Below, one piece after another: positions 10,315 through 57,860 of a DNA stretch of 64,000 nucleotides (positions are counted from its first letter, which is position 1; each line of letters opens with the position of its first letter). Origin of the DNA: an uncultured Acidimicrobiaceae bacterium (lineage in GTDB: Bacteria; Actinomycetota; Acidimicrobiia; Acidimicrobiales; SZUA-35); NCBI GenBank assembly GCA_947259095.1, contig CAMYLA010000002.1:86093-150092 (forward strand). The letters are read 5' to 3'. The notes below the pieces were generated by a model. That model was not told the origin of the DNA. It saw nothing but the letters and a program-made list of their open reading frames with translations, and ran no database searches. Made by a program: the position numbers and the translations under genes.

Positions 10315-11601
10315 TCAGTCAGTTGGTTCCCGCTGCCCTGGCCATAGCCGATGATGATCGAGGGCCTGGACGAGGCGGTCGTAGCCGATGCGCTCCTGTT
10401 CGAGGCGAACGTTGTGACCATGGCGGTCGCAGCGAAGATCATCGTAGAGCTGCGCCTCCTGGGTGGTGAGGCGGGGAAGATCCCGAATTTCGGGCTTGGA
10501 CTCGCAGCCCCAGAATTGACGGTGGTCGAGCAGGGTCCGGCCGTCCATCAGGAATGACTCCACATGACTGAATCGGCGGCGAACCTCGTCGAGGATGGCA
10601 AAGCCGTGGGTGTCGATATCGCCCCAGTACAGAACCCGCCGCCGCTCCAACCAGGCGGCGGACGCAAAGCGCTCTGTGCCGAATCCACCGCCCCACAGCA
10701 CCATCGCATCGGCACATTCCGGGAAGGCCAGGAAGTTGATCTCGTTCTCGACGACGTAGACACGGCTGACGGCCGGGTCAAGGATGGCGAACGTTTCGCT
10801 GTCCAACGAGACGTCCTGTGTCGGCGGTAGTCCGCCGGCGGCGAGGACGGATCGCCCTGGATCGAGCACCCGGAAACGGACCAGGTTCGGCTTCGTTCGG
10901 AAACCAAGTCGCCGTTCGAATCCTCTCGCTCCGGTTGCCCCGGGTTCTATGACTGCGGCGGGCAGCCCGTGATCTATGAGCTCGGACAGCACCGCCCGAT
11001 GGGTCTCGACGAACTTCGTGTCGATGCCCGGCAGGTCGACCTGTCGAAGGTAGATCCCCGGGCCGACGTTGGCTTCGATCCAGTCGATGAAGTCGAGCAG
11101 CTTCTCCCACACGGTGGCGTGATCAAGTGCAACCAACGGTCGCTTGCCGACCCAGGTCAACAATGGCGGACGGCGTCGTCGGGTCTCGGCCAGCACCTCT
11201 TCGAACAGCGCTGCCTCTCGCCGGCGACCGACAACGGTCAAAGCGTCATCCAACGAGTCGAGCCAGGCTTCGGCCGGTACATCGTTGGCGCCGAGCACAC
11301 GATGGTTGACCCGGCGACGGACGATGCGAATCCGATCGGCCGCGTTCAACCCCGCTATCCAGGTTCGGACATCCTCGAACCGCTCGACCAGATCAGCGGA
11401 GGCCGGCCGCTTGAGACGAAGGCGATAGGGGAACACCAGCCGGCTGTCGGCATCGCCCACTTCGGTTCCACTCATCAGCGATCTCAGCAGCAGGCCGCGG
11501 TCCCACAACCGTTGGACCTGGACCTGCAAATCGGTCTGGTCGGTCCAGGCCGACACCTGCGGGCGACGAGGTCGCCGGGGCCGCGAAGACGAAGGGCTCA
11601 A
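10315..11601 (-). CDS. jetD: Wadjet JetD (DUF3322/DUF2220, Toprim-like)
   Basis: VVENEINFLAFP and YWGDIDTHGFAIL Toprim-like motifs; TTG start overlaps jetC stop (TTGA). Confidence 0.85.
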   Translation of the reverse strand: MSPSSSRPRRPRRPQVSAWTDQTDLQVQVQRLWDRGLLLRSLMSGTEVGDADSRLVFPYRLRLKRPASADLVERFEDVRTWIAGLNAADRIRIVRRRVNHRVLGANDVPAEAWLDSLDDALTVVGRRREAALFEEVLAETRRRRPPLLTWVGKRPLVALDHATVWEKLLDFIDWIEANVGPGIYLRQVDLPGIDTKFVETHRAVLSELIDHGLPAAVIEPGATGARGFERRLGFRTKPNLVRFRVLDPGRSVLAAGGLPPTQDVSLDSETFAILDPAVSRVYVVENEINFLAFPECADAMVLWGGGFGTERFASAAWLERRRVLYWGDIDTHGFAILDEVRRRFSHVESFLMDGRTLLDHRQFWGCESKPEIRDLPRLTTQEAQLYDDLRCDRHGHNVRLEQERIGYDRLVQALDHHRLWPGQREPTD

Positions 11602-14600
11602 CCGGCTCGTCTGGCCTTCTCGGCCCGGTATTCGGCGATGGTGAGCGTACGCAGCTTTGATGAACGACCGTCGCTGTTGTCGACGAAGCCAACGCTCGAC
11701 ACGAACGGTTCGATGATATGGATCTTCTGCAGAGGTGTGACTATCAACAACTGTAGGTTCAAGCGCTCGAACAGCTGCAGGCCGTACTGGGCGGATTCAT
11801 CCGAGCCACGGCCGAAGGCCTCGTCGATGGCCACGAAACGGAAGGATCGCGATCGGGCTTCGCCCCACTCGAGCCCGAACTGATAGGCCAGACTTGCGGC
11901 CAGGATGGTGTAGGCCAGCTTCTCCTTCTGCCCGCCGGACTTGCCGCTCGAATCGGTGTACAGCTCGTGCTCGCTGTCGTCCTCCTGCCACCGCTCGCTG
12001 GCGGCGAACAAGAACCAGTTACGAACGTCTGTGACTTTGGCCGTCCATCGCCGGTCCGCTTCGGTAAGTCCGGTACGACCTTTGAGCCGCTCGATGATGG
12101 CCTTCACCTGCTCGAATTTGGTGTCGGAATACAGCTCGTCCGCCGATTCGTTCAGGGAACCCTCGGTGCAAGCCCTGAGCTCTCGGCGGAATTCCCGGAC
12201 CTCGGAATCGGTCGTCGGGTCGGCCACCAGGGCGATGTAACGGCCGGGGTTGTAGTCGATCTGGGTCAGCGAATTGTTGATCACCCCGATCCGCTCGCTG
12301 ATGATCGCCGCCTCGCGGCTGAGCTGGGACTGGAAACCTGCGACCTCGCGAATGGTGTTGGTGTTCAACAGTTCCTTGAACTGCTCCTCGAACCGCGGCA
12401 GTCCGTCGTCGGTCAGCTCGACCAACATGGATCGAAACTCCTCACCCGCTTCGACAGATGCATCGACCTCCGCCGTTTCCGCCGGGTAGTCGGCCCGGTA
12501 TGCATTCATCGCGGTCACGATCCTGTCCTGCAACCGACCGAGCCGTTTGTCGATGGCGTCGATCTCGTTCTGCAGGCGGGTTCGCACCGTGGATTCGATG
12601 GAGCCGACCGATCGGAGTTGGAGTGGGCGACCGTCGAGCTCGGCCTTGAGGTGAACTGCGACCGCCTCATATCGTCGACGGTGGACCTCGGTTTCCGGTA
12701 GGTCGAGGGCAGCCTGGGCTTCGGCTCGATGCTCCTCATCGGCCGCCACCCGGCTGCGGATATCGGCTGCGTCGCCGACCAGCCGTTGCCACCGCTCGTC
12801 GGCATCGGTCCGTCGATGCTCGGTGGCCGACAGCTCCTCCTGGAGCCGGCGCAGAACATCGGACGAGGCTTCCAGCTCGGCCACCTGCCGCTGCAGGTCG
12901 TCGATGGTGGTGGCCAGTGATCGCCAATCGATGTCGTCATAGGTTTGGTAGGTGCCAAGGGCTGCCACTGCGTCACGTTTGGCTCGAAGCTCGCCTTCGG
13001 CGGTATCGATGTCGGTCAGCCGGGCGCCGAGCCGACCGAGTTCGGCCTCCAGCGTTGTCCGCTCAGCATCGAGGGCGGCGATCTTCTCGTCGTTGGTCCA
13101 GCCGAGCACAAAGCGTCGCCGGTCACCGATGTGGTGACGATCGTCCTTCTCGTGGCGCCCACCCCCGCCTTTGATCTGCCCGGTTGCGGTGATGGCCCGA
13201 CGCTCTTTGCGGAACCGGGCCTGGTCGTCGCAGCACACGTAGTCGAATCTGCGGATCAGTTCGCGTTCGATCCATTCATAGAACCCGGAGTCGTGTTTGA
13301 TCTCCAGCTTGCGGACCAGCGAATCTGGATCGGAGGCCGCGGTTTGGCTCTGCTGGTTGGTGTCGGGCTTGACCCGGAAGTAGACCAGACGACCCCGGAG
13401 GTTTGTCTCATCCACCCAGGCCGCCACCCGGCTGTAGTGGTCGTCGGCGACCAGCAACGACAGCCCGAAATTGTGGAGCACACGCTCTGCGGCCGGCTCC
13501 CAATTCGAGGCCGATTGCCTGACCTGCACGTGCTCGCCGACGAACGGCAGATCTTCGGCCGACAGTGAAAGTGCATCGCACAGCACCTGACGCAAGCGGA
13601 TCTGCGCGGCGGGAATGTTGCTCCGCCGCTGACGGAGATCGTCGATCTCGGCTTGCAGCTCGTCGTGATTGGTCCGCCCGTTGGCAAACTCGCCACCAAC
13701 GACCGCTTTGTCGGTGGACAAGTCGGCGCTCTGCTGATCCAACGAGCCCCGTAGCTCGTCGAGGGAGCGCGCGGTCTGGATGAACTGGTCTCGATCCTCG
13801 GGGTGGGAGCGTGAGAGCTGATCCAGTCGGTGGCCATATTCCTCGGCTCGCTCCCGTCGTCGAGCGCGTTCGGTGGTCTTGGTGGCGATGTCGTTGCGGA
13901 GCTGTTCGAGCCGGCCGCCACCGCTGGCGGCGATGCTCCCCTTCAGGCGCTCCACGTCGGACTGCAACTCCCGTCGGGCCGCATCGGCGTCGGCGACCGC
14001 CGCCTGCTTCTTGGTCAGGTCGGCGGTCAGGGAGGCGAGGCGGGTGCCGAGCAGTCGAACCCGCTCGGCCTGCATGTAGGACTCCAGTGCATCCCGATCG
14101 GCTCGTAGATCATCGGCCTGCTGCCCCTGAGTCTGGTAGCGGTCGACGTCGGCCAGGATCGGGGTGAGCAGTTCGATCTGCCGTTTCGCGGTCAGGACCG
14201 CGTCGTGAGCCCGATCGAGATCCTCGAAATGGTCTATCAGCGATGTGATCCGGGCCTCGACGTCGAACGGTTGGAGCATGTGGCTGCGGACGAAGTCGGT
14301 GAGGTTGCCGACCGACTTCATCGACACCGTCTGGTGGAACAGGTCAAGGGCCTGGTCGTTGTCGATCCCGAATCGGCGGCGAAACCAGGCACCGTACTCG
14401 GGGTAGGTGTTCGATGTCTGGGCCCCTCGATTCCGCAGGCGCCGGCTCAGCGTCGGCATGCTGCCGTCGAAGTTCACAAAGTCCTCGGCGATGCTCAGAT
14501 CAGCGTCGATGGCCACGTAGAGGCGGGCCGGAGGACCCTCCAGAGAGCGAAACCAGAACACCTGAGCCAACGTGACCGTTTGGCCATAGCCCTCGTTGTG

Positions 14601-14978
14601 GAACACCCCGAGAATGGCCGAGTATGAGGTCTTGTCTCGAAGCGCCACCGGTTTCGACGAGCCCGAGTGGTCGCTGCGCTCCGACTTGTAATAGCCGAGC
14701 ATGTACGTTTCGAGGGAGCGTTCTCGGGTCTCTGCCCCGGCCGCCTTGTTGTAGGCCACGCGGTGGGACGGCACGAGCAGCGTGGTGACGGCGTCGACCA
14801 AGGTGGACTTCCCCGAGCCGATTTCGCCGGTGAGCAAACCGTTGCGGCCATTGATCGGCACAACCCACGGCCGCTTGTCGAACGTGCCCCAGTTGTAGAC
14901 CTCGAGCCGCTGAAGGCGAAACCCGGCCCGCGAGTCATCGGCCACGAATTCCAGCTCTCCCACAACCGCCTCAGCCAT
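11598..14978 (-). CDS. jetC: Wadjet JetC SMC-like ATPase
   Basis: Walker A GEIGSGKSTLVDAV, coiled coil, FRFVAIDEAFGRGSDESAQYGLQLF Walker B; overlaps jetB end by 8 nt. Confidence 0.9.
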   Translation of the reverse strand: MAEAVVGELEFVADDSRAGFRLQRLEVYNWGTFDKRPWVVPINGRNGLLTGEIGSGKSTLVDAVTTLLVPSHRVAYNKAAGAETRERSLETYMLGYYKSERSDHSGSSKPVALRDKTSYSAILGVFHNEGYGQTVTLAQVFWFRSLEGPPARLYVAIDADLSIAEDFVNFDGSMPTLSRRLRNRGAQTSNTYPEYGAWFRRRFGIDNDQALDLFHQTVSMKSVGNLTDFVRSHMLQPFDVEARITSLIDHFEDLDRAHDAVLTAKRQIELLTPILADVDRYQTQGQQADDLRADRDALESYMQAERVRLLGTRLASLTADLTKKQAAVADADAARRELQSDVERLKGSIAASGGGRLEQLRNDIATKTTERARRRERAEEYGHRLDQLSRSHPEDRDQFIQTARSLDELRGSLDQQSADLSTDKAVVGGEFANGRTNHDELQAEIDDLRQRRSNIPAAQIRLRQVLCDALSLSAEDLPFVGEHVQVRQSASNWEPAAERVLHNFGLSLLVADDHYSRVAAWVDETNLRGRLVYFRVKPDTNQQSQTAASDPDSLVRKLEIKHDSGFYEWIERELIRRFDYVCCDDQARFRKERRAITATGQIKGGGGRHEKDDRHHIGDRRRFVLGWTNDEKIAALDAERTTLEAELGRLGARLTDIDTAEGELRAKRDAVAALGTYQTYDDIDWRSLATTIDDLQRQVAELEASSDVLRRLQEELSATEHRRTDADERWQRLVGDAADIRSRVAADEEHRAEAQAALDLPETEVHRRRYEAVAVHLKAELDGRPLQLRSVGSIESTVRTRLQNEIDAIDKRLGRLQDRIVTAMNAYRADYPAETAEVDASVEAGEEFRSMLVELTDDGLPRFEEQFKELLNTNTIREVAGFQSQLSREAAIISERIGVINNSLTQIDYNPGRYIALVADPTTDSEVREFRRELRACTEGSLNESADELYSDTKFEQVKAIIERLKGRTGLTEADRRWTAKVTDVRNWFLFAASERWQEDDSEHELYTDSSGKSGGQKEKLAYTILAASLAYQFGLEWGEARSRSFRFVAIDEAFGRGSDESAQYGLQLFERLNLQLLIVTPLQKIHIIEPFVSSVGFVDNSDGRSSKLRTLTIAEYRAEKARRAG

Positions 14979-15666
14979 GGTGATGACCTCCGTCCCCCTG
15001 CCGACCATCTTCGCCACCGTCGCGTAGCCGGGCGGCGTATTCGGCGAGGCGCTCATTGAACTCCGAGAGCCATTGCCCATCAACGTAGGCCTTCAAGATT
15101 CGTTGCACCTCATATCGGGGCGACTGACCGCCGGTGCTGGCCCGCTTGTCGAGTCGCCGCAGAAATCCGAGTTCAATCACTCGGTTCAGATGGCGTTCGA
15201 CGTTGTCGACGATCTTGGTTTCGTTTGTGGTCTCCGGGGTGAAAAGGCGGACGAGCTCAACGATCTCCTCCTGGGTCAGGATGAGGCGGGTTTCGCCGCC
15301 GCCGGAGCTGTCGAATTCGGCGAGCCGTTTCCGAAGCAGCGCCAAGAGCAGGCTGACCGGGAAGCTGAGCGATCGGCGAGCCATCAACCGGGGCACCGGT
15401 GAGACCTCACCTTCGGGGACCTCAACGGACCGGAGGTAGGCGTACCCCTCGGCCTCGTCGATGACCAGCACCAAGCCGAGCACGGCCATGTGGTCGCGGA
15501 CCTGGGGCTGCAACTTGTCGAGCAAGGCCCAGACGTCAGGTTTGCGGTTGCGATGGATCGGGCCTTTCAGCAGCGACACCGCAACCAGCGGCAAGCCGTC
15601 CTTGACCTGATGTGTGTTGATTGGGTCGGCCTCGGGGCCAGCGGTCGAGTGAGTCATCTCGGTCAT
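14971..15666 (-). CDS. jetB: Wadjet JetB (DUF4194)
   Basis: ATG 15666 overlaps jetA stop (ATGA); position between jetA and jetC; MksE-like features. Confidence 0.85.
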   Translation of the reverse strand: MTEMTHSTAGPEADPINTHQVKDGLPLVAVSLLKGPIHRNRKPDVWALLDKLQPQVRDHMAVLGLVLVIDEAEGYAYLRSVEVPEGEVSPVPRLMARRSLSFPVSLLLALLRKRLAEFDSSGGGETRLILTQEEIVELVRLFTPETTNETKIVDNVERHLNRVIELGFLRRLDKRASTGGQSPRYEVQRILKAYVDGQWLSEFNERLAEYAARLRDGGEDGRQGDGGHHHG

Positions 15667-17147
15667 CGGGCACCGACGAAGATCACTCGGGGAATTCGGG
15701 CTTGTCGAACGAACGTCGACCCGACGGGGTTGTCCACGTCCCACAAGATGATTTCCTCTTGTTCGTCATCGATGACCGCGTCGAAGGTTGAGTGGGCCAA
15801 CTCGAGGTAGGCCACGATTTCGGCAAGCCCTTGCTCAACCGGTTCGAGCCGGCAAAGCTCACCGAGGCTGACCTGACCCCGGCGCCGCAACAGGCGACGG
15901 ACCTTGGCGGTCAGGGCCGCTTTGTCGATGACGAACTGAGTGAAAAGGGCGTCGGGATCAACATCGAGGCCATCAGCGTCATCGAAGGTCACGTCGGCCA
16001 ACCGTATGGCACCCTCCGGTCCGGCCAGCGGCCGTTCCATCGGCAGGTTGATGTCGGCGGTGGGGAGTTCGATCTCGATCACCTCGCCCGATGGCGGTTC
16101 ATCGCGGACCGCCAAGGCGGTCGCTTCGATATTGTGCAGGATTTCCATGATGCGTCGATTCTCGAGCCAGGCCTGGTCATCGAGGAACCGGCGGAGTTGC
16201 TTGGACAGCTGGGCCACGGTCCGCTGGGCGTGCTCGCCGGCTTCGAGCCAATCGTAATGGAGACGCCTGGTTCGAGGATCGGGGTTGAGGGTGGCGACGG
16301 CCTCGAGGGCGAGGACGTTGTCGAGCAGTTCGGTCAGTTCGTCCTGACGAGTGGTCGACATGAGGTAGTCCCAGAAGGCGCTGAAGTTCCGGCCCTGCTC
16401 GGAGCCGCTTATGGCATCTCGCTCGCCGATGATCTCGGCCAGCAACGTCCCCTTCGAATCGGTCCAGGACGCAATCTGCTCTCGAACACTTCGATCGAGA
16501 ACCCGGAAGTTCTGCTCGACTTCCCGGAAGTCGCTGAGCAGTTCCCGAGCGGTCTGGGTGAACTGTTGGAAGCGGTCGCGCAGGGCCGTGTCGTCGAGTA
16601 TCGGGACGTGCCCGGCGTCGATCTGGGCGATCTCGGCGTCGATCTCGGCCCGGCGGCGCTCCAGCTGACCGATGCGAACCGAGGGGTCGGCCTGGCTGCC
16701 TTCGGCCATCTGACGCAGCAGTTCGAACAGGGTCAACAGCCGAGACTCGGTGCCGACGAACGAGCGGATGGTGAGGTTGGACAGCCAGCCGATCGTCTTC
16801 TCCGTGGCCGGGGTCAGATCGAAATGGGGCTGATCCGAACCGTCGATGTAGTACTTGCGGAGCCAACCCTGGTCGGCATCGGACCAGTCATTCAGGTAGG
16901 CGGCGGCCGACTTCGGATACCGGTCGGCACCGAGTTGTTCTCGGAGCGAGTAGAGCAGATCCTCGAGTGCCTCGACCAGTTCCGGTTGGGCGATCTCCCG
17001 CCGGTTGGACTCCACGAACGCTCGATTGAGAAAGGCGATGGTCAGCGGGGCGTGAGTGGACGCCAGCAGACGCCATGCCGGGTGCTTCTCGCGCAACGTC
17101 ACGAGCGTGTCGTAGTCGAGGGCCTTGGCCGGGGACGCCTCTACCAC
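15663..17147 (-). CDS. jetA: Wadjet JetA (DUF3375)
   Basis: MVEASPAKALDYDTLVTLREKHPAWRLLASTHAPLTIAFLNRAF; first jet gene; GTG overlaps upstream stop by 7 nt. Confidence 0.88.
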   Translation of the reverse strand: MVEASPAKALDYDTLVTLREKHPAWRLLASTHAPLTIAFLNRAFVESNRREIAQPELVEALEDLLYSLREQLGADRYPKSAAAYLNDWSDADQGWLRKYYIDGSDQPHFDLTPATEKTIGWLSNLTIRSFVGTESRLLTLFELLRQMAEGSQADPSVRIGQLERRRAEIDAEIAQIDAGHVPILDDTALRDRFQQFTQTARELLSDFREVEQNFRVLDRSVREQIASWTDSKGTLLAEIIGERDAISGSEQGRNFSAFWDYLMSTTRQDELTELLDNVLALEAVATLNPDPRTRRLHYDWLEAGEHAQRTVAQLSKQLRRFLDDQAWLENRRIMEILHNIEATALAVRDEPPSGEVIEIELPTADINLPMERPLAGPEGAIRLADVTFDDADGLDVDPDALFTQFVIDKAALTAKVRRLLRRRGQVSLGELCRLEPVEQGLAEIVAYLELAHSTFDAVIDDEQEEIILWDVDNPVGSTFVRQARIPRVIFVGAR

Positions 17148-24604: not shown

Positions 24605-24830
24605 TCATCCGTTGACCTCTGTTGGCCGGGGGATACCTTGGTTGACCGGCGTCAGTGGCACCCCGGTGGCACGAGTGAGCCTGTGACGTGACGACGGAAG
24701 TCCTCGGGCAGATCCTCGACCTCGATCATTTTGGGCCCGGATCATGGCGCGCTGTTCCTCGTCGGACATCTGTCGCCACTCGCTCGCCGGCACCCACTGG
24801 AGCTCCCATCCACGTGGCGCCAGGCTTCCT
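24605..24830 (-). pseudogene. Decayed third copy of the 55-aa PASEWRxMSD gene
   Basis: GWELQWVPASEWRQMSDEEQRAMIRA, frameshift, then IEVEDLPEDFRR; start Met replaced by Trp codon. Confidence 0.7.
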
Positions 24831-26961: not shown

Positions 26962-27019
26962 TGGCGGAGAGAGGGGGATTCGAACCCCCGGAACTGTGAG
27001 GGTTCAACGGTTTTCAAGA
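26962..27019 (-). repeat. tRNA-Ser 3'-half fragment (att-like), copy A
   Basis: tggcggagagagggggattcgaacccccggaactgtgagggttcaacggttttcaaga, same as intact tRNA at 57771 up to the anticodon loop. Confidence 0.9.
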
Positions 27020-27140
27020 GACAGCGGCCCGAGAGGTCGACTCGCCCTCGAACGGGCCAGCTTCCAGCCCTTGCAAGGACCTCCAGACCATCATCCGTTT
27101 ACCGCTGTCGACCGCCGAGGCCTACCATCACCCGACGCCA

Positions 27141-27158
27141 GTGGCACCACGGTGGCAC
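27141..27158. repeat. GTGGCAC-N4-GTGGCAC motif
   Basis: GTGGCACCACGGTGGCAC. Confidence 0.85.
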
Positions 27159-31442: not shown

Positions 31443-31805
31443 TGTGGTGGTCGAACGACCGCGGCCCCCGGGGTGGTTGATCACCCTGGTGTCGGGGCGA
31501 GGGGAGCGGCACCGTGACGGTCTCGTGCCGAGAGGATGGGGCCGCACGCCGATCGATGTGCGTGAGGCCGACCGCCGGGGCCACGGCCACGGGTTCTGGC
31601 AAGCGGAGCCATGGATCGTCTGCTCCACCCGTAACCGGCACCGCAGAAGCGAAAAGCCGGCGGTCACGCGATCGTCGAGACGGGGCATGGATCCTCCGAT
31701 CGCTAAACCAATCGCTCCTCCCCAACACCTCATGGGCCGACTGTGGCAACCCCATCGGCGGACGAGTCGCCATCAAGAAACTGAACGACGAGCGAGAGCG
31801 GTCTA

Positions 31806-32108
31806 GTGTTCGTGAACAACGCCGGTCGTTCGGTGACGCCAGAGAACTACGGGAAGGTCTGGAATCGGGCGAAGGCTGAGCTATGGCCAACCGGTCATCA
31901 GCTGGCAGCCACGAACCCATACGACCTCCGTCATTCAGCGGCTACGGCGATGCTCCGGGCCCACGTCCCGTTGCCCGAAGTGGCTCGCCGGCTCGGACAT
32001 TCGGTGGACATCCTTCTTCGCGTCTACGCCGGCGTCTTTGATGACGAAGTGGAGCGATCAAATAGCTTCATCGACGCTGAGTTCGCACGGCAGGCGGTCC
32101 GACGGTAA
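31806..32108 (+). pseudogene. Truncated tyrosine recombinase/integrase (C-terminal catalytic part only)
   Basis: YDLRHSAATAMLRAHVPLPEVARRLGHSVDILLRVYAG has HxxR, GHS and Tyr; N-terminal domains absent. Confidence 0.8.
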
Positions 32109-33332: not shown

Positions 33333-33390
33333 TGGCGGAGAGGGGGATTCGAACCCCCGGAACCTGTGAGGGTTCAACGGTTTTCAAGAG
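33333..33390 (-). repeat. tRNA-Ser 3'-half fragment, copy B
   Basis: tggcggagagggggattcgaacccccggaacctgtgagggttcaacggttttcaagag. Confidence 0.9.
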
Positions 33391-33509
33391 GCAGATCCCC
33401 TACTCTCGAAACGCCAGCTGCCAAGCCAGAGTACGGCCCCAGTCGGCTGCGACGGGCTCGCATCCGTCGACCGCCATGGACCGGTGCAGTCCTCGGTGGG
33501 CCCGTGCCA

Positions 33510-33527
33510 GTGGCACCACCGTGGCAC
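33510..33527. repeat. GTGGCAC-N4-GTGGCAC motif
   Basis: GTGGCACCACCGTGGCAC. Confidence 0.85.
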
Positions 33528-33544
33528 GCTCGACCCTGCTGCTT

Positions 33545-33712
33545 CTAAGCGCTCCGTCGAAGCGACTGGTGGTTAGCCAACATGTCCTCGACCTCGCGAC
33601 GGAAGTCTTCGGGCAGATCCTCGACGTCGGTGATCCCTGCTCGGATTAGGGCACGCTGTTCCGCGTCCGACATCTGCCGCCACTCGCTGGCCGGCACCCA
33701 CTGCAGCTCCAT
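33545..33712 (-). CDS. Small conserved 55-aa protein, module copy 1
   Basis: MELQWVPASEWRQMSDAEQRALIRAGITDVEDLPEDFRREVEDMLANHQSLRRSA; paralog at 37584-37751. Confidence 0.75.
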   Translation of the reverse strand: MELQWVPASEWRQMSDAEQRALIRAGITDVEDLPEDFRREVEDMLANHQSLRRSA

Positions 33713-33772
33713 GACCCCCACACTATCAGAAGCGCCTCTCGCGGGAAGTCTGCGACGTAGGCTGAGCCCTCC

Positions 33773-34045
33773 ATGCTCTTGATCGCGGCTCACGTCCTCG
33801 GCGACATCGAACGCTGGTGGACTGGCCACGGCCGGAATCTCTCGGGCTCGGAGATCGGGGACCTCTACCGACTCCTGCACCAGGCCTCGGTCGAGGCCCA
33901 GGCTGCCTGGTCTCTCCTCCCCGATCGGGGCGACGGGACCCGCATCTTCTCGATCCGGGCCGCGCTCGTTCCCATCTCTCTGCTCCTTATCGAGCAAATC
34001 GACAACGTCATCGTCCTGGACATTCGGATCCCGACCCAGCGGTGA
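33773..34045 (+). CDS. Small conserved 90-aa protein, divergent partner, module copy 1
   Basis: LLIAAHVLGDIERWWTGHGRNL...YRLLHQASVEAQAAWSLLPDRGDGTRIFSIR; paralog at 37782-38087. Confidence 0.75.
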   Translation: MLLIAAHVLGDIERWWTGHGRNLSGSEIGDLYRLLHQASVEAQAAWSLLPDRGDGTRIFSIRAALVPISLLLIEQIDNVIVLDIRIPTQR

Positions 34046-34351
34046 ATACCCGACAGCGGAACTGCGGCCGTCCAGCAAGATGTCATCGGTCGACAACCTG
34101 GACAACACCGTTCCTTCGACCGTCGCCAATGTGGCCGCCCAAGCCGGACCGACACGGGTCACGATCCCGAGCCGGCCACCCTCGATTCGGCCGAGCCAAG
34201 ACGTTGCGGTGATGGCCAGAGAAAGTCAGATGGGTTGGCTCATCGACTGACCGACGATGACCTTCGCGAACTCGCGCTGCCCCCACCCACGGCGCCAGTT
34301 CAAACAACATCGCAAGCCCCAACTGTCCACCACACCGGTTGAACACAGATC

Positions 34352-34369
34352 ATGCCACGGTGGTGCCAC
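34352..34369. repeat. GTGGCAC-type motif, inverted orientation
   Basis: ATGCCACGGTGGTGCCAC, about 85 bp left of tRNA fragment C. Confidence 0.85.
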
Positions 34370-34451
34370 TGAAATACGATATTCCGTGACGCTCGCCCAC
34401 TCACCGACATGACAGGTTCCGCCGCCGCAACGCCCTGACCAGGCGAAATCA

Positions 34452-34508
34452 GCGGAGAGACGGGGATCCGAACCCCCTAACCTGTGAGGGTTCAACGGTT
34501 TTCAAGAG
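34452..34508 (-). repeat. tRNA-Ser 3'-half fragment, copy C (diverged)
   Basis: gcggagagacggggatccgaaccccctaacctgtgagggttcaacggttttcaagag. Confidence 0.85.
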
Positions 34509-34627
34509 GCGACGACCTAGCCCTCGAAATCCTCATCTACCTCGCCTAGAACCCGGCGATGGCCCATGAAACGGGCTTGCGCCATTGACCGTTGTTGACC
34601 CAGAGCGGCCGCGGTCGACCGACGCCA

Positions 34628-34645
34628 GTGGCACCACCGTGGCAC
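34628..34645. repeat. GTGGCAC-N4-GTGGCAC motif
   Basis: GTGGCACCACCGTGGCAC. Confidence 0.85.
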
Positions 34646-34976
34646 GATCGACCAGGCGCCATCAATGTAGGAGTTGGTCGTGCGATCAAGTCCTGCGGAG
34701 CGACCGAGACCCTTGCCGCTCGCCATCACGACGAATCTGCCTTGACGGCCGTTGGCGTCGCTTGCTTGAGGTTGACGGAACCCCGGAGAAGGTTTGGCGG
34801 GATCGGCACTGAGAACCGGGTCGCTCCTGTGTCCGATCGCCGGGTCGACATCAGTATCGCCCAGCCAGACGAAATCGCCTGCGGTGCAGTCCGAACTCAA
34901 CGACCAGTACACAGAATCACGCTACTCCAATTGCTTATACCGTCTTCGAGTCGCCAAACTCTCTGTAGGAGATGAG

Positions 34977-35816
34977 ATGACTATGAGCGACCGGCCAACA
35001 CTTGCCTACAACGCGATCACACCGAAGTTTGGGTCGGAACTGATCGACGTCACGCTGCTCGAGATGAGCGACGAAGACGTCGAAGCGCTGCAACAACTGG
35101 CAGCAGAGCGAGGCATTGTCGTCGTCCGCGACCAAGAGATGTCAATGCAACAGCAAGCCGATTTCGCTCATCGACTCGGGCCGTTGTCGATTCATCAGAC
35201 CGGTGAGTCGGAGCTTCCTCCAGAGCTGTTGCTGGTCCAGAACGACGAGAACTCCAAGCGCGCGGTCGGGGGTGCTTGGCACTCGGACATCTCCAGCGAA
35301 GAACGGCCACCTGCACTCTCGATGCTTCGCATGGAGGTCGTGCCTTCCTCAGGTGGCGACACGCTCTTCGCCGACATGTACCAAGCGTTCGAAGCGTTGT
35401 CGCCGGAGATCCAGGCGCTGGCGAAGAGGCTCACGGCCCGACACGACTCCAAGGGGCACCATCTCTACCTGCGGGGGATCAAGACGCTCAAGGAGTTGCC
35501 GTCAAACGTGCATCCGGTGGTTCGAACGCATCCCCGCACGGGTCGCAATGCGCTCTACGTGAACTCGTCGTTCGTTGGTCGTCTGATGGAAACGACCAAG
35601 CTCGAGGGCGAGGCCATTCTGGCGATGCTGTACGAGCACATTGCCTTGGGCGTCTCATTCCACTGCCGCGTGAAGTGGAAACCGAACACGGTCGTGTTCT
35701 GGGACAACCGATGCGTTCAGCACTTCGCAACGTTCGACTACTTCCCCGAGCTTCGACGGGGGTATCGAGCCACGTCCATCGGTGGGGCTCCGTACCTCGA
35801 CCCTGCTGCGGGCTAG
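34977..35816 (+). CDS. TfdA/TauD family alpha-ketoglutarate dioxygenase
   Basis: WHSDISSEERPP HxD motif; VFWDNRCVQHFATFDY distal His; RRGYRATSIGG. Confidence 0.88.
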   Translation: MTMSDRPTLAYNAITPKFGSELIDVTLLEMSDEDVEALQQLAAERGIVVVRDQEMSMQQQADFAHRLGPLSIHQTGESELPPELLLVQNDENSKRAVGGAWHSDISSEERPPALSMLRMEVVPSSGGDTLFADMYQAFEALSPEIQALAKRLTARHDSKGHHLYLRGIKTLKELPSNVHPVVRTHPRTGRNALYVNSSFVGRLMETTKLEGEAILAMLYEHIALGVSFHCRVKWKPNTVVFWDNRCVQHFATFDYFPELRRGYRATSIGGAPYLDPAAG

Positions 35817-36018
35817 GCTAGGCAGCCGCCTCAGGCCACCACGCCTTCCGAGCGAAGACGGGCAAGCTCTTAGTACGCCGGCGCCCCAGACGTTCGGCTG
35901 TTCGTCACCCCGACCGAACAGGAAACGTCGACCAGGCTGCCACCGATCTCGGCCCAGTGCCCGCCGAGCAGCCCACGCTCAGCGGCCCGATCCCTCGATG
36001 GGGAGCGCTACGGGTGGG

Positions 36019-36744
36019 CTATGGGATACCGACCATCTCGGTGGTTGATCGGAAGATGAGTCGAGCGTCGGCGTCGAAGTACTGCTCGATGCCATCGCTC
36101 TCGTACAGCTCGAGGTATCGGCGCAGCGCGCCCTTGTCCGGGAAGTAGAGCTCGGCCATCCCGACGTAGGGGTCGACGGCTGGTTGATCGGAGATACTCA
36201 CCACATAGCGGAACCCTCCGGCCTGCTCCATGGCGCCCGCCACGTTCGGCGCATGCACGTTGAGCCAATGATCGGTCAACGTTTGATGATCCGCCTCCGC
36301 CTTTGCCGTCAAGATCGTGGTGACCTTGAGGAAGCCGCTACGTGTGCACGGGAACGGCTCATTCAAGTCATTTGGCGTCAGCTGCAGGTCACCATCGACG
36401 ATGACATACTCGGTCGTCGGCCATCCGACATACGGCTCGGCCTTCTGCTGGAACGTGTCACGAGGCGTAGTGCCGTGCGGAGTCTTCTCACGTGGGTACG
36501 GAGCATCAGTCCAGATCTGGGCGACACCATCCCACACCTGCTCCCCGGATGGCACGGGGTTGTACAACGTCGCGATGTAGCGAGGGGCAGCGGCGCTGGT
36601 GCTGACCGCCGCCTGGTTCTGCCGAGCCAGAACGGCCGGCATGTGGTTGGCAAACCAATTCACCACCAATTCGTCGCGGGTGACGCCCGGCCGCCGACTG
36701 ATCAAAAACTGCATCTTGGTGCCAGGTGTCGCCATCACGTTCAT
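36019..36744 (-). CDS. EthD-domain protein
   Basis: FLISRRPGVTRDELVVNWFANHMPAVL; second repeat LTDHWLNVHAPNVAGAM. Confidence 0.7.
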   Translation of the reverse strand: MNVMATPGTKMQFLISRRPGVTRDELVVNWFANHMPAVLARQNQAAVSTSAAAPRYIATLYNPVPSGEQVWDGVAQIWTDAPYPREKTPHGTTPRDTFQQKAEPYVGWPTTEYVIVDGDLQLTPNDLNEPFPCTRSGFLKVTTILTAKAEADHQTLTDHWLNVHAPNVAGAMEQAGGFRYVVSISDQPAVDPYVGMAELYFPDKGALRRYLELYESDGIEQYFDADARLIFRSTTEMVGIP

Positions 36745-36912
36745 GCCCCAAACCTATTCCTGCCGTCGCCTCGCGCTGAAATCGATACCTCTGCTCTGAG
36801 GCGCACCGGTGGCTCGCTGCCCCAATGCACTCGGCTTGGCACCCGCCCTTTTGGCACGCGCTGTTGATATTCGCTGTTTGATACACACCCGGCCCATCAG
36901 CCGACATGGAGC

Positions 36913-37212
36913 ATGAGCATGACACTCGATGAACAGTTGGAGGTACTCGCCGAGTACTGCGCCAATGGTCGGCGGCGGGCGCTCGAGCTCGGCAAGCGAG
37001 GACCGGTGAGGTTCGTCGGTGACCGTGTACTACATCCCGAGATCGTGAAGGCGTACTGGCGGACCGGTTTCTACGTCTTCGAGGGGCTCATCGAAAGCGA
37101 CGAACTCGCCGACCTCCGACCGGTCTCCTACATGAAACGGACGATACGCGGCCTCGGTGATGAGCGCGATCGCTTCCTTCTCGTTGGCACCCGCCGCCGG
37201 CTCATCGACTGA
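36913..37212 (+). pseudogene. Truncated phytanoyl-CoA dioxygenase-like N-terminus
   Basis: EIVKAYWRTGFYVFEGLIESDELADLR then loss of homology at the att-associated repeat. Confidence 0.55.
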
Positions 37213-37313
37213 CCGACGATGACCTCCGCTGACCACTGTTGCCCCCTTGACCGGACTGCGGATCGGCGAGGTCGGCAGCCACAGCCGTCCATCACACTAG
37301 GTGAATACCGACC

Positions 37314-37331
37314 GTGCCACGGTGGTGCCAC
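37314..37331. repeat. GTGGCAC-type motif, inverted orientation
   Basis: GTGCCACGGTGGTGCCAC, about 80 bp left of tRNA fragment D. Confidence 0.85.
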
Positions 37332-37410
37332 CGGACAACGACTGTCCGTGACGTTCTACCACTCACCGACGTGACTAGCGCGGTCACCGCAACGCCGTGA
37401 CCTGGGGTTT

Positions 37411-37470
37411 TGGCGGAGAGAGGGGGATTCGAACCCCCGGAACCTGTGAGGGTTCAACGGTTTTCAAGAG
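37411..37470 (-). repeat. tRNA-Ser 3'-half fragment, copy D
   Basis: tggcggagagagggggattcgaacccccggaacctgtgagggttcaacggttttcaagag. Confidence 0.92.
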
Positions 37471-37583
37471 GCAACGCCTGCATGCCAAATGCGCCGACGT
37501 ACAGGCCAGAACTCACCTCTGACGCCGGGATTCAGACTGTTATCCGTTCGCCGCTGTTGACCGTCGGGAGCTGCAGCGGACCG

Positions 37584-37751
37584 CTACGCGTTGCGAGGGA
37601 GCGCTCGATGCTGGGCCAACATGTCCTCGACCTCTCGACGGAAATCCTCGGGAAGGTCCTCGACCTCGGTGATCCCAGTTCGGATCATGGCCCGCTGCTC
37701 GTCGTCGGACATCTCCCGCCACTCGCTCGCCGGCACCCGTCGCGATTCCAT
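37584..37751 (-). CDS. Small conserved 55-aa protein, module copy 2 (not in the ORF track)
   Basis: Manual translation: MESRRVPASEWREMSDDEQRAMIRTGITEVEDLPEDFRREVEDMLAQHRALPRNA. Confidence 0.75.
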   Translation of the reverse strand: MESRRVPASEWREMSDDEQRAMIRTGITEVEDLPEDFRREVEDMLAQHRALPRNA

Positions 37752-37781
37752 ACCCATAGGATACCTCCAACGCCCATCGGC

Positions 37782-38087
37782 ATGAGATCAGATCCCGTAT
37801 CCTGGGCCGCCGCGCTCCTCATCGCAGCCCACGTCCTGGGCGACATCAACCGATGGTGGACCAAGCACGGCCAACACCTCACCGACGGTCCGGAACTCAG
37901 CGAGGTCTACCGCCTTTTGCACCAGATCTCGATCGAAGCCGAGGCTGCCTGGTCCTTGCTTCCCGAACGAGGTGACGGAACACGCGTTTTCTCGATACGG
38001 ACCGCATTGCTCCAGATCTCACTGCTCCTCATGGAACGGGGAGAGGATGTCGTCGTCATCGACTTGCGGATTCCGACCGAGCGCTGA
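37782..38087 (+). CDS. Small conserved 101-aa protein, divergent partner, module copy 2
   Basis: LLIAAHVLGDINRWWTKHGQHL...YRLLHQISIEAEAAWSLLPERGDGTRVFSIR. Confidence 0.75.
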   Translation: MRSDPVSWAAALLIAAHVLGDINRWWTKHGQHLTDGPELSEVYRLLHQISIEAEAAWSLLPERGDGTRVFSIRTALLQISLLLMERGEDVVVIDLRIPTER

Positions 38088-38159
38088 GGACAGCGTCGGC
38101 CAAGTCGCAGGCTAGCCGACCAAGACAGACCTAAGAATCCTCCGCCGAATTATGGGCAG

Positions 38160-38300
38160 CGGTGTGGGGTGGGGGTGCGAGGCGCGGCCGAGGGGCTCGC
38201 TCGGTTGTTCGAGGCGATGTCCGCGTTGCTTGATGAGCGTGAGCGGCGGGTGGTGGCCCAGATGCTGGGTCGGGGTGGTCAGGCCCGACCTCAGCGTTGT
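38160..38300 (+). mobile_element. Remnant of ISAzo13-like transposase N-terminus
   Basis: LARLFEAMSALLDERERRVVAQMLGRGG resembles LFEAL..LDERQRRLLAA.EARALGRGG. Confidence 0.5.
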
Positions 38301-38667
38301 CTTCGACGTCGTCGTCAAGATGGGCTTGGGCCCAGCCAGGTTAGGCCGTCTTAAGTCGATCTGTAGAGCTCGACTTTGTACTTGAAGGTTAGTCGCCCGA
38401 GATGCTCAATCGAGCTTGTCGACTTCGTCTGGTGGCACAGGGGAGTGGATGTTGACGCCGGAACCCTCGACAGCTGGCGTCTTCTGCGACAGGAGATCCA
38501 AAGCCTCTTCGATTGTGATGTCGTCGTACCGACCGGCAAAGAGAGTGCCTGGGAAATGAACGTGAGGGTCCAATCGTCTCCAGGCGGAACACATGGGGAT
38601 CGTGCACGCTCGTTGCGGCTGCCGACAGCATTGTTTGTACCGTTCGTTCCCTGGAGGCTCTCGCCTC

Positions 38668-38682
38668 ACCGGTTTTCAAGAG
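38668..38682 (-). repeat. tRNA-Ser anticodon-arm fragment, copy E (minimal)
   Basis: accggttttcaagag followed by gcagcgcc as in the other right flanks. Confidence 0.6.
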
Positions 38683-38800: not shown

Positions 38801-38818
38801 GTGGCACCACCGTGGCAC
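38801..38818. repeat. GTGGCAC-N4-GTGGCAC motif
   Basis: GTGGCACCACCGTGGCAC. Confidence 0.85.
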
Positions 38819-38855: not shown

Positions 38856-40229
38856 CTACGCTGGCCAACGCGTGCTCGACCTCGCGACCGAGTCCTCTGA
38901 GAGGTTCTGGGCCTGGTGGTCCCGGACTGGCTCATGGTGCGCTGCCGAGTGAGCGGCCATGGCGACCACGAGCAGTGACATCGTGATCGCCTGCACCCAG
39001 ACCACCGTCTCCAGAGACCCCGACCACGACACCAGCAGTGTCTGGACCACCGCAGCCCCCAACATCAGGTGGCCCCGCCGATGGCGGCCGGCCGCGAGAT
39101 CGACCATGGCCAGGAAGTTGGCCACGGCCAGGAGGGAGGTGGCCAGAACGTACGGGCCGAGTAGCGACCCGGCCCCGGCGTAGGCGTCGGAGAACAGGAG
39201 GCCGACCACCGGGCGGCCGAGGGTCCAGAACCCGACGGTGGCGATCGCCCCACCACCGGCCAGGAGGGCGACACCGGCGCGGACCAGCCGTCGGGTCGTG
39301 GCCGCCTCGACCCCGGTCCGGGCGCCGACCGGGAACACCGCGGTGACGATCGACCAGCTGCCCAGGTGGACGGCCCGGCCGAGCAGGGCGACCACGGCGT
39401 AGGTCCCGGCCTCGGCGGCATCGAAGCGCTGCTTGACCAGGAGCAGGTCCCCGTGGCTGATGGTGATCTGGGCGATGAGCAGGACGGTGGTCGCCCCGGC
39501 GGCCTGGGCCAGCCCCGGCGTTCGATGCGATCCCGGCCCCGGCCTCGTCGGCCGGACCAGGGCCCGGGCCACGATCAGCGAGGCCAGCAGCGAGGCGAAG
39601 AGCCCGGCCGAGACACCGACCGGGCCCCAGCCGGCGGCCACCAGAGCGCAGCTCATCGCCACCCGCACCACCATCTCGACCAGGAACGAGCCGGCGAGGC
39701 GGCCGAAGGCCATCCGGCCCTGGAGGATCCCCCGGTCGACCGCCTGGGCCAGGAACAGCGGGAGGCTCAGACCGAAGATCACCAGCGCGGTCGGGTCGGC
39801 GACCTTGAACCCGGCGGCCAGACCGTCGGCCCCGAGTGCGATGGCCAGGGCGAGGACACCGCCCATGGTCCAGGCCGTCCGTGTCAACCGCTGTCGGATC
39901 GCCATGGTGGCGTCAGGGTCGGACCGGGCCAGCGCGGCCGAGCCGTACCGAGCCGCCACCAGCTGGAGGCACCCGGCCAGGGCGGTGACCACCAGCAGCA
40001 GGGTGACGATGAGCGACGCATCCCCGAACTCCTCGGGCGTGAGCCATCGGGCCAGCAGGGCATTGAGGGCATAGTTGCCGGCCCCGGACACGGTCATGGC
40101 CCCGGTCAGGAGGGCACCGCCGGCCACGACCCGCCGGTGGCCGACCGAGGTCGTGAATTGAGGGTCGGCCTCGGTCGGCCGGATCTCGTCGGTTCGGGTC
40201 ATCGTCGGTCCAACTGGCTCATGAGGCAC
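38856..40229 (-). CDS. Polysaccharide/oligosaccharide flippase (Wzx-like)
   Basis: Polytopic; GNYALNALLARWLTPEEFGDASLIVTLL; C-terminal tail encoded inside att-associated repeat remnant. Confidence 0.75.
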   Translation of the reverse strand: MPHEPVGPTMTRTDEIRPTEADPQFTTSVGHRRVVAGGALLTGAMTVSGAGNYALNALLARWLTPEEFGDASLIVTLLLVVTALAGCLQLVAARYGSAALARSDPDATMAIRQRLTRTAWTMGGVLALAIALGADGLAAGFKVADPTALVIFGLSLPLFLAQAVDRGILQGRMAFGRLAGSFLVEMVVRVAMSCALVAAGWGPVGVSAGLFASLLASLIVARALVRPTRPGPGSHRTPGLAQAAGATTVLLIAQITISHGDLLLVKQRFDAAEAGTYAVVALLGRAVHLGSWSIVTAVFPVGARTGVEAATTRRLVRAGVALLAGGGAIATVGFWTLGRPVVGLLFSDAYAGAGSLLGPYVLATSLLAVANFLAMVDLAAGRHRRGHLMLGAAVVQTLLVSWSGSLETVVWVQAITMSLLVVAMAAHSAAHHEPVRDHQAQNLSEDSVARSSTRWPA

Positions 40230-57716: not shown

Positions 57717-57734
57717 GTGGCACCACAGTGGCAC
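57717..57734. repeat. GTGGCAC-N4-GTGGCAC motif beside intact tRNA-Ser
   Basis: GTGGCACCACAGTGGCAC. Confidence 0.85.
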
Positions 57735-57770: not shown

Positions 57771-57860
57771 TGGCGGAGAGAGGGGGATTCGAACCCCCGG
57801 AACCTGTGAGGGTTCAACGGTTTTCAAGACCGACGCAATCGTCCACTCTGCCATCTCTCC
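57771..57860 (-). tRNA. tRNA-Ser(UGA), 3' CCA encoded
   Basis: GGAGAGATGGCAGAGTGG...GTCTTGAAAACC (anticodon TGA)...GGGGGTTCGAATCCCCCTCTCTCCGCCA; paired acceptor, T stem and long variable arm. Confidence 0.95.

Follow-up and report, generated by a model that had tools for sequence, protein, structure and literature searches.

The 64,000-nucleotide stretch examined here (the window) corresponds to positions 86093–150092 of contig CAMYLA010000002.1 (C2), a 150-kb contig in the 6.4-Mb assembly of an uncultured Acidimicrobiaceae bacterium. It contains two short intervals which are each bounded by copies of a tRNA-Ser attachment (att) site and which each open with the same pair of small genes, encoding proteins of 55 and 90 amino acids (aa). 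This raises the question of what these units are and what would keep them in the chromosome. The reading favored here, with about even confidence, is that they are integrase-less mini-islands which resemble cis-mobilizable elements (CIMEs) and carry a new toxin-antitoxin (TA)-like pair, with the operon order of this pair rearranged to a divergent one.

Organization of the att array

Only one intact tRNA gene, tRNA-Ser(UGA), was found in the window, together with six copies of its 3'-half core (five in the array and the intact tRNA itself), against none in 100 shuffles. The cores of the array start at 27001, 33371, 34489 and 37451, with a truncated copy at 38663, and the att copies correspond to the part of the tRNA between the anticodon loop and the 3' end. 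A search of the bacterium's own genome found no intact core beyond contig C2. The resulting tandem units extend over 27.0–33.4 kb, 33.4–34.5 kb (interval 1), 34.5–37.5 kb (element 2), 37.5–38.7 kb (interval 2) and 38.7–57.8 kb, the last reaching the tRNA gene (Table 1).

A direct repeat, GTGGCAC-N4-GTGGCAC, was detected nine times in the window against 0.07 expected, and all nine own-genome matches to the GTGGCACCACNGTGGCAC form of this arm lie inside it. Left arm sites (27141, 33510, 34628 and 38801) are located ~139 bp 3' of the left cores, with none left after core 37451, and some left ends have an additional GTTGACC-N3-GTTGACC-type repeat pair between core and arm. An inverted arm repeat lies ~137 bp before two of the right cores (34352 and 37314). 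A core accompanied by arm sites is the layout expected for a tyrosine integrase, and the sites of the array are predicted to be the core and arm sites of such an enzyme. It should also be noted that an arm-type direct repeat is present beside the intact tRNA-Ser(UGA) (57717–57734), in the orientation opposite to that of the other right arms, and that a similar repeat, GTGTTCC-N4-GTGTTCC, is found in about the equivalent place in genome G208 (L052, just upstream of 13375).

An assembly artefact was considered and rejected, as the copies differ by 21–27% and the same order is seen in an independent metagenome-assembled genome (MAG; locus L019). The att-plus-arm structure was also sought in viruses, with seven IMG/VR pattern matches, all of which looked like chance.

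Both intervals are 1.1–1.2 kb in length, and in each the att copy is followed by the 55-aa gene on the minus strand and the divergent 90-aa gene on the plus strand. Interval 1 is complete at 1118 bp, with both att copies and both arms, and its coding content is the two small genes. Interval 2 is a decayed copy: its left arm site is lost, its right boundary is a truncated att belonging to the next element, and the codon at the conserved start of its 90-aa gene is GCG, with an in-frame ATG at 37782 which would give a protein of 101 aa. An earlier note, made from the letters of the window, had described a duplicated att-bounded two-gene module and a minimal unit lacking an integrase. Both pairs, the att repeats and the ends of interval 1 agree with the first description and interval 1 with the second, interval 2 being a decayed copy with its right att truncated and its left arm gone.

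The 55-aa/90-aa gene pair

The two copies are 79% identical in DNA over the 55-aa gene and 73% over the 90-aa gene. Both genes are under purifying selection: the changes between copies fall mostly at third codon positions, dN/dS is 0.14 for the 55-aa gene and 0.24 for the 90-aa gene, and values of ~0.05–0.36 were obtained among all pair copies where these were computable. The coding signature which the earlier note had seen preserved between the copies was thus confirmed. TANNNT motifs were found within 4–9 nt of 10 of the 12 starts in six pairs, against at most 3 in 5000 shuffles. In actinobacterial leaderless genes such a motif stands shortly before the start, and its placement here suggests leaderless transcripts for both genes.

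Remnants of the 55-aa gene were found just inside the arm sites at ~24.7, 27.2 and 38.9 kb; the left end of islands of this family therefore probably included the gene ancestrally.

Table 1. Positions of the att sites, arm sites and genes discussed (window coordinates unless a locus is named)
Feature	Position	Strand	Basis or remark
att copy 1, left end of interval 1	33333..33390	.	tRNA-Ser 3' half
Left arm site GTGGCAC-N4-GTGGCAC, interval 1	33510..33527	+	
55-aa protein (antitoxin-like), copy 1	33545..33712	-	homologous to class-wide 60-aa family
Shared divergent promoter region (predicted), copy 1	33713..33772	.	both starts preceded by TANNNT at 6-9 nt
90-aa protein (toxin-like), copy 1	33773..34045	+	modelled alpha-alpha-beta-beta-beta
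Right arm site, interval 1	34352..34369	-	
att copy 2, shared by interval 1 (right end) and element 2 (left end)	34451..34508		
Left arm site, element 2	34628..34645	+	arm-repeat search
Right arm site, element 2	37314..37331	-	arm-repeat search
att copy 3, left end of interval 2	37411..37470	.	
55-aa protein, copy 2	37584..37751	-	
90-aa protein, copy 2	37815..38087	+	start GCG, alternative ATG 37782
Truncated att (~38663), shared by interval 2 (right limit) and next element (left end)	38669..38682	.	
Left arm site of element after interval 2	38801..38818	+	arm-repeat search
55-aa gene remnant after arm site 38801	38864-38891		
Decayed 55-aa gene inside arm site 24655	24664..24805	-	tblastn E down to 5e-11
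att copy, left end of 27.0-33.4 kb element	26964..27020	.	core match; arm site 27141-27158
Tyrosine integrase C-terminal fragment, only one found in window	31782..32108	+	PF00589
Intact tRNA-Ser (anticodon TGA), targeted by the islands of the array	57771..57860	-	ARAGORN
GCGGTCCTAATGCGAC(T/A)AAGTTCGAACC-type motif	L012 1537-1583, 3146-3192; L021 about 4310-4280 (reverse); L073 just upstream of 11166		

Relatives of the pair in other genomes

Both genes were found together in two of 199 genomes of the order, namely the bacterium's own and that of a congener (G192). A third carrier (G203) came from a search at the level of the genus, and when 85,462 GTDB species were scanned, each represented by one genome, JAOTYQ010000356.1 (L019) was added and G192 returned again. 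All carriers of the pair are MAGs or draft assemblies, several of them incomplete, so that calls of absence depend on completeness, and the comparisons rest on six copies in four genomes. In all six full copies the genes are paired and divergent, with a spacer of 46–63 bp, and an intact pair was never found split. Locus L019 matches the anatomy of the window, with a tRNA-Ser att, an arm repeat 124 bp further on, the 55-aa gene and then the 90-aa gene. In genome G192 the pair occurs twice, with a VapBC-type antitoxin/PIN-toxin pair after each copy and then a tRNA-Ser 3'-half fragment, which appears to derive from another tRNA-Ser isoacceptor. In G203 an intact tRNA-Ser att lies ~15 bp after the 90-aa gene and the arm repeats are of variant sequence. 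A decayed left att of the G203 unit was noticed by eye and rejected, an ungapped comparison not being significant. No relatives of the pair were found on viral contigs at meaningful E-values, nor of the 90-aa protein in phage and plasmid records, the 55-aa protein not having been run against the phage records.

The earlier note had proposed checking whether the pair co-occurs and sits beside tRNA fragments elsewhere, which it does: all six full copies are paired, and tRNA-Ser att fragments accompany it in other genomes. Homologs occurring only singly and unlinked to att sites, or an absence of purifying selection between copies, had been named as results which would speak against the proposal, and given the co-occurrence, the att linkage and the purifying selection, neither was obtained.

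Further features were noted in these and related islands. In G192 the two PIN-domain (VapC-like) toxins (L012, 1640–3959) each have a ribbon-helix-helix antitoxin. A motif, GCGGTCCTAATGCGAC(T/A)AAGTTCGAACC or close variants of it, recurs at the borders of modules in several islands and might be a further recombination or terminal site.

An operonic family homologous to the 55-aa protein

Within the order, the 55-aa protein gave a weak match to a 60-aa protein of genome G067, and this 60-aa protein, used as query over 376 genomes of the class, gave matches in 16, reciprocally including the window copy. The profiles of the 55-aa and 60-aa families are collinear over 47 columns (HHalign, 96.8%, E 2e-10). 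The homology of the 55-aa protein to this class-wide family is, like the att/arm anatomy and the conservation, selection and co-occurrence of the pair, evident at the level of sequence. It lends independent support to the guess in the earlier note that the pair is toxin-antitoxin-like, as the 60-aa protein belongs to an overlapping two-gene operon. Sixteen loci outside the genus were examined. Directly downstream of the 60-aa gene and co-directional with it, 15 of them carry a gene for a ~100-aa protein of one family (two of these 15 partners being truncated), with an overlap of 4–8 nt between the two genes in 14; the remaining locus has an in-frame stop in the 60-aa gene. These loci (L004 and L084–L099) are patchily distributed in the Acidimicrobiia, and patchy two-gene operons are typical of toxin-antitoxin systems. 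The copy at L096 lies ~60 bp 3' of a tRNA-Thr gene.

The ~100-aa family gave no Pfam match and none of note in sequence searches of NCBIfam or the PDB, and its occurrences in a phylum-wide sample were confined to the same order. When its profile was aligned globally and over full length with that of the 90-aa family, the score exceeded column shuffles by 4.1 standard deviations and local shuffles by 3.5 (0 of 200 in each case), the alignment pairing DGTRVFSIAIALLPISLLLIERGDD-IIVWDIRI of the 90-aa protein with YRVLIGAGTLVPAFAVTGQLADDGAVELFSLDIDL of the ~100-aa partner. As the global mode was run after HHalign and glocal alignment, a degree of method selection enters into this signal. The 90-aa protein resembles a diverged member of the ~100-aa partner family, the link being of moderate strength.

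Predicted structures

The AlphaFold2 model of the 90-aa protein shows an alpha-alpha-beta-beta-beta arrangement (predicted local distance difference test, pLDDT, 65), and the first four PDB neighbors in Foldseek are ParE/RelE toxins (E 0.3–0.8, the best being 0.29; template modeling (TM) score 0.37–0.51). The model is without the N-terminal first strand of the beta-alpha-alpha-beta-beta-beta fold of ParE/RelE at this pLDDT. The 90-aa protein also differs from ParE/RelE in having neither a hidden Markov model (HMM) match nor significant sequence similarity: no Pfam match, PF05016 (ParE/RelE) included, was obtained for the 90-aa family even at E 10 or for the ~100-aa family at E 1. Homology to ParE was tried by sequence and rejected, the 90-aa family aligning in register and without significance. 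Because the fold matches are weak and the ParE sequence tests were not significant, the pair is called toxin-antitoxin-like and the ParE/RelE fold is taken as a lead only. The 55-aa protein was modeled as a three-helix protein with no convincing PDB neighbor, and its matches below cut-off in Pfam and NCBIfam were weak (DUF3106, DUF7167, NarM and CD1375). A BFVD fold search gave no coherent family.

Integrases and other tRNA-Ser islands

The window yielded no intact tyrosine integrase, PF00589 giving one C-terminal fragment on the contig; serine integrases were not searched separately. A relative of this fragment in G199 is an integrase 3.4 kb 3' of tRNA-Ser(UGA), its gene being interrupted by a contig end, another in G200 lies near tRNA-Ser att repeats, and in G208 a core-plus-arms site of the same kind is located 8.2 kb away from the intact tRNA-Ser(UGA). 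Such islands and integrases therefore recur at tRNA-Ser in the genus. Integrase relatives are present in G199, G200, G202 and G208, all without the pair, while G192 and G203 have the pair and no such integrase; this comparison within the genus is limited by MAG incompleteness. It is plausible that units carrying the pair are mobilized in trans by integrases of this kind.

The islands hold other genes. Element 2 encodes a TauD-family dioxygenase and an EthD-domain protein. A Wadjet-type anti-plasmid defense operon (10315–17147, minus strand; JetD, SbcC/AAA_29-type, DUF4194/MksE and DUF3375 proteins) lies between arm sites 9191 and 24655 and is therefore probably cargo of an older island in the array. 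In G200 (C149; L073, 9152–11166) two tRNA-Ser att copies enclose 2 kb of DNA with a Fic/DOC gene, a further small att-bounded unit whose cargo is different, and a tRNA-Ser island of G208 encodes a MazF/PemK-like toxin with a small gene upstream (L052, 2259–2781).

Comparison with known systems

Core and arm sites flank the units, and a two-gene module recurs in them. CIMEs keep att sites, are without recombination and transfer genes and are mobilized after accretion with a functional element, classical examples being 1.2–13 kb in length and carrying cargo (PMC5704250; PMC7563491). The units of the window are similar in being att-flanked, integrase-less elements arrayed at the 3' end of their target gene, with the more decayed ones at a distance from it. 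Two full att sites and both arms are retained in interval 1, and in part in interval 2. No recombination or conjugation genes accompany the two small genes of interval 1, relaxases and serine integrases not having been searched. The arm repeats, the actinobacterial host and the recurrent two-gene module are particular to this array and unlike CIMEs. By att/arm and gene content the units match the definition of CIME-like elements, a designation which makes no claim of descent from an integrative and conjugative or integrative and mobilizable element.

The pair resembles type II TA systems in being two small, adjacent, co-occurring genes (in all six intact copies) with class-wide homologs in an overlapping operon. 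It differs in that the genes are divergent in the genus and not a co-transcribed operon, whereas the homologs of other genera are overlapping and co-directional. TA pairs of the Tn3 family (PMC7157771) likewise adjoin the recombination site of a mobile element, but those elements possess recombinase genes and their TA families are known, while in the window no intact recombinase was found and the family is undescribed. Arrays of integrase-less units which could be moved in trans are also known as clusters of attC sites lacking integron-integrases (CALINs) and integron cassettes (PMC11389934), although the sites here are tRNA-Ser 3' halves with arm repeats and not attC.

Evaluation of the possible explanations

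Under the favored reading, the intervals would be parts of a tandem accretion of tRNA-Ser(UGA) islands, with interval 1 a CIME-like minimal element made up of two recombination sites, arm repeats and one two-gene module, without a recombinase. We infer that the 55-aa three-helix protein is antitoxin-like and the 90-aa alpha-alpha-beta-beta-beta protein its toxin-like partner. Each of the divergent genes would have its own apparent leaderless promoter, and the pair could autoregulate at the shared 46–63 bp spacer. Loss of an island would then be made costly by the pair, and decayed islands would stay in place. Excision or insertion could be performed by a tyrosine integrase of the family of the 31.8-kb fragment, supplied by another element.

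Several results weigh against this interpretation. The divergent order is atypical of type II pairs. The earlier note had recognized neither family, and HMM searches with both proteins likewise gave no Pfam or NCBIfam match above cut-off; PADLOC gave no match for the 90-aa protein. The ParE/RelE fold matches are weak (E 0.3–1.4, TM about 0.5, pLDDT 65), and neither the 90-aa nor the ~100-aa family was significant against ParE sequences of the same genus. HHalign and glocal alignment find nothing between these two families, and scores equal to those of some 90-aa members are reached by certain real protein segments which are unrelated. As copy 2 has lost the conserved start codon, an arm site and the full right att, at least one unit is dying.

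A further point of this kind also speaks for another explanation, by which the intervals are deletion remnants of larger islands and the pair is ordinary cargo (for example for immunity, phage exclusion or regulation) with no role in addiction. The right end of interval 1 (34237–34508) is 75–83% identical in blocks to that of element 2 (37199–37470), and interval 1 may therefore be an internal-deletion derivative of a larger island. The decay of copy 2 fits as well, as do the varied cargo of the neighboring islands (Wadjet, VapBC, MazF/PemK-like and Fic genes) and the finding that in CIME arrays the most decayed elements are farthest from the target gene (PMC7563491). However, both genes are under purifying selection across copies, the intact pair is never split, and the homologs are tight two-gene operons of patchy occurrence (16 of 376 genomes of the class). 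This explanation is considered unlikely.

That the pair controls recombination of the island, as a directionality factor and a regulator retained next to attL, is disfavored and rather improbable. Divergent small genes beside an att recall phage switch regions, and the 55-aa gene or its remnant stands directly inside the left arm at 24.7, 27.2, 33.5 and 38.9 kb and in L019. Yet the operonic homologs of the 55-aa protein in other genera are not near a tRNA-Ser att (a tRNA-Thr stands ~60 bp from one of the 16 loci), in G192 and G203 the pair does not adjoin the same arm, and searches of Pfam and NCBIfam matched neither protein to a known excisionase. Co-occurrence with a cognate integrase, as for an excisionase, was not seen among the genomes of the genus within the limits of MAG incompleteness, the pair and the integrase relatives being mostly in different genomes. 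The suggestion of a directionality pair made in the earlier note is thus not upheld.

A stronger form of the favored reading is comparably doubtful. Here the new TA-like family, divergent and leaderless, would form with its two att sites and arm repeats a complete, self-maintaining element of ~1.1 kb, moved in trans by the integrases of other tRNA-Ser islands, as a tRNA-targeting analogue of a miniature inverted-repeat transposable element held by addiction. A dedicated minimal cassette moving repeatedly in trans is very improbable: interval 1 is complete with both arms and the pair stands beside a tRNA-Ser att in four genomes, with fragments from apparently two isoacceptors, but of the two window copies just one is intact at its ends, the 21–27% difference in DNA between copies argues against recent movement, the G192 pair travels with VapBC and not alone, and no significant left att was obtained for the G203 unit.

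Implications

If the reading of CIME-like mini-islands with a toxin-antitoxin-like pair is right, the pair would represent a two-gene toxin-antitoxin-like family not described before, in which operonic and divergent arrangements could be compared. The array would also provide a simple case of integrase-less, decayed islands held in the chromosome by a pair of their own, and the persistence of tandem island remnants at tRNA genes would become directly testable with a module of ~500 bp.

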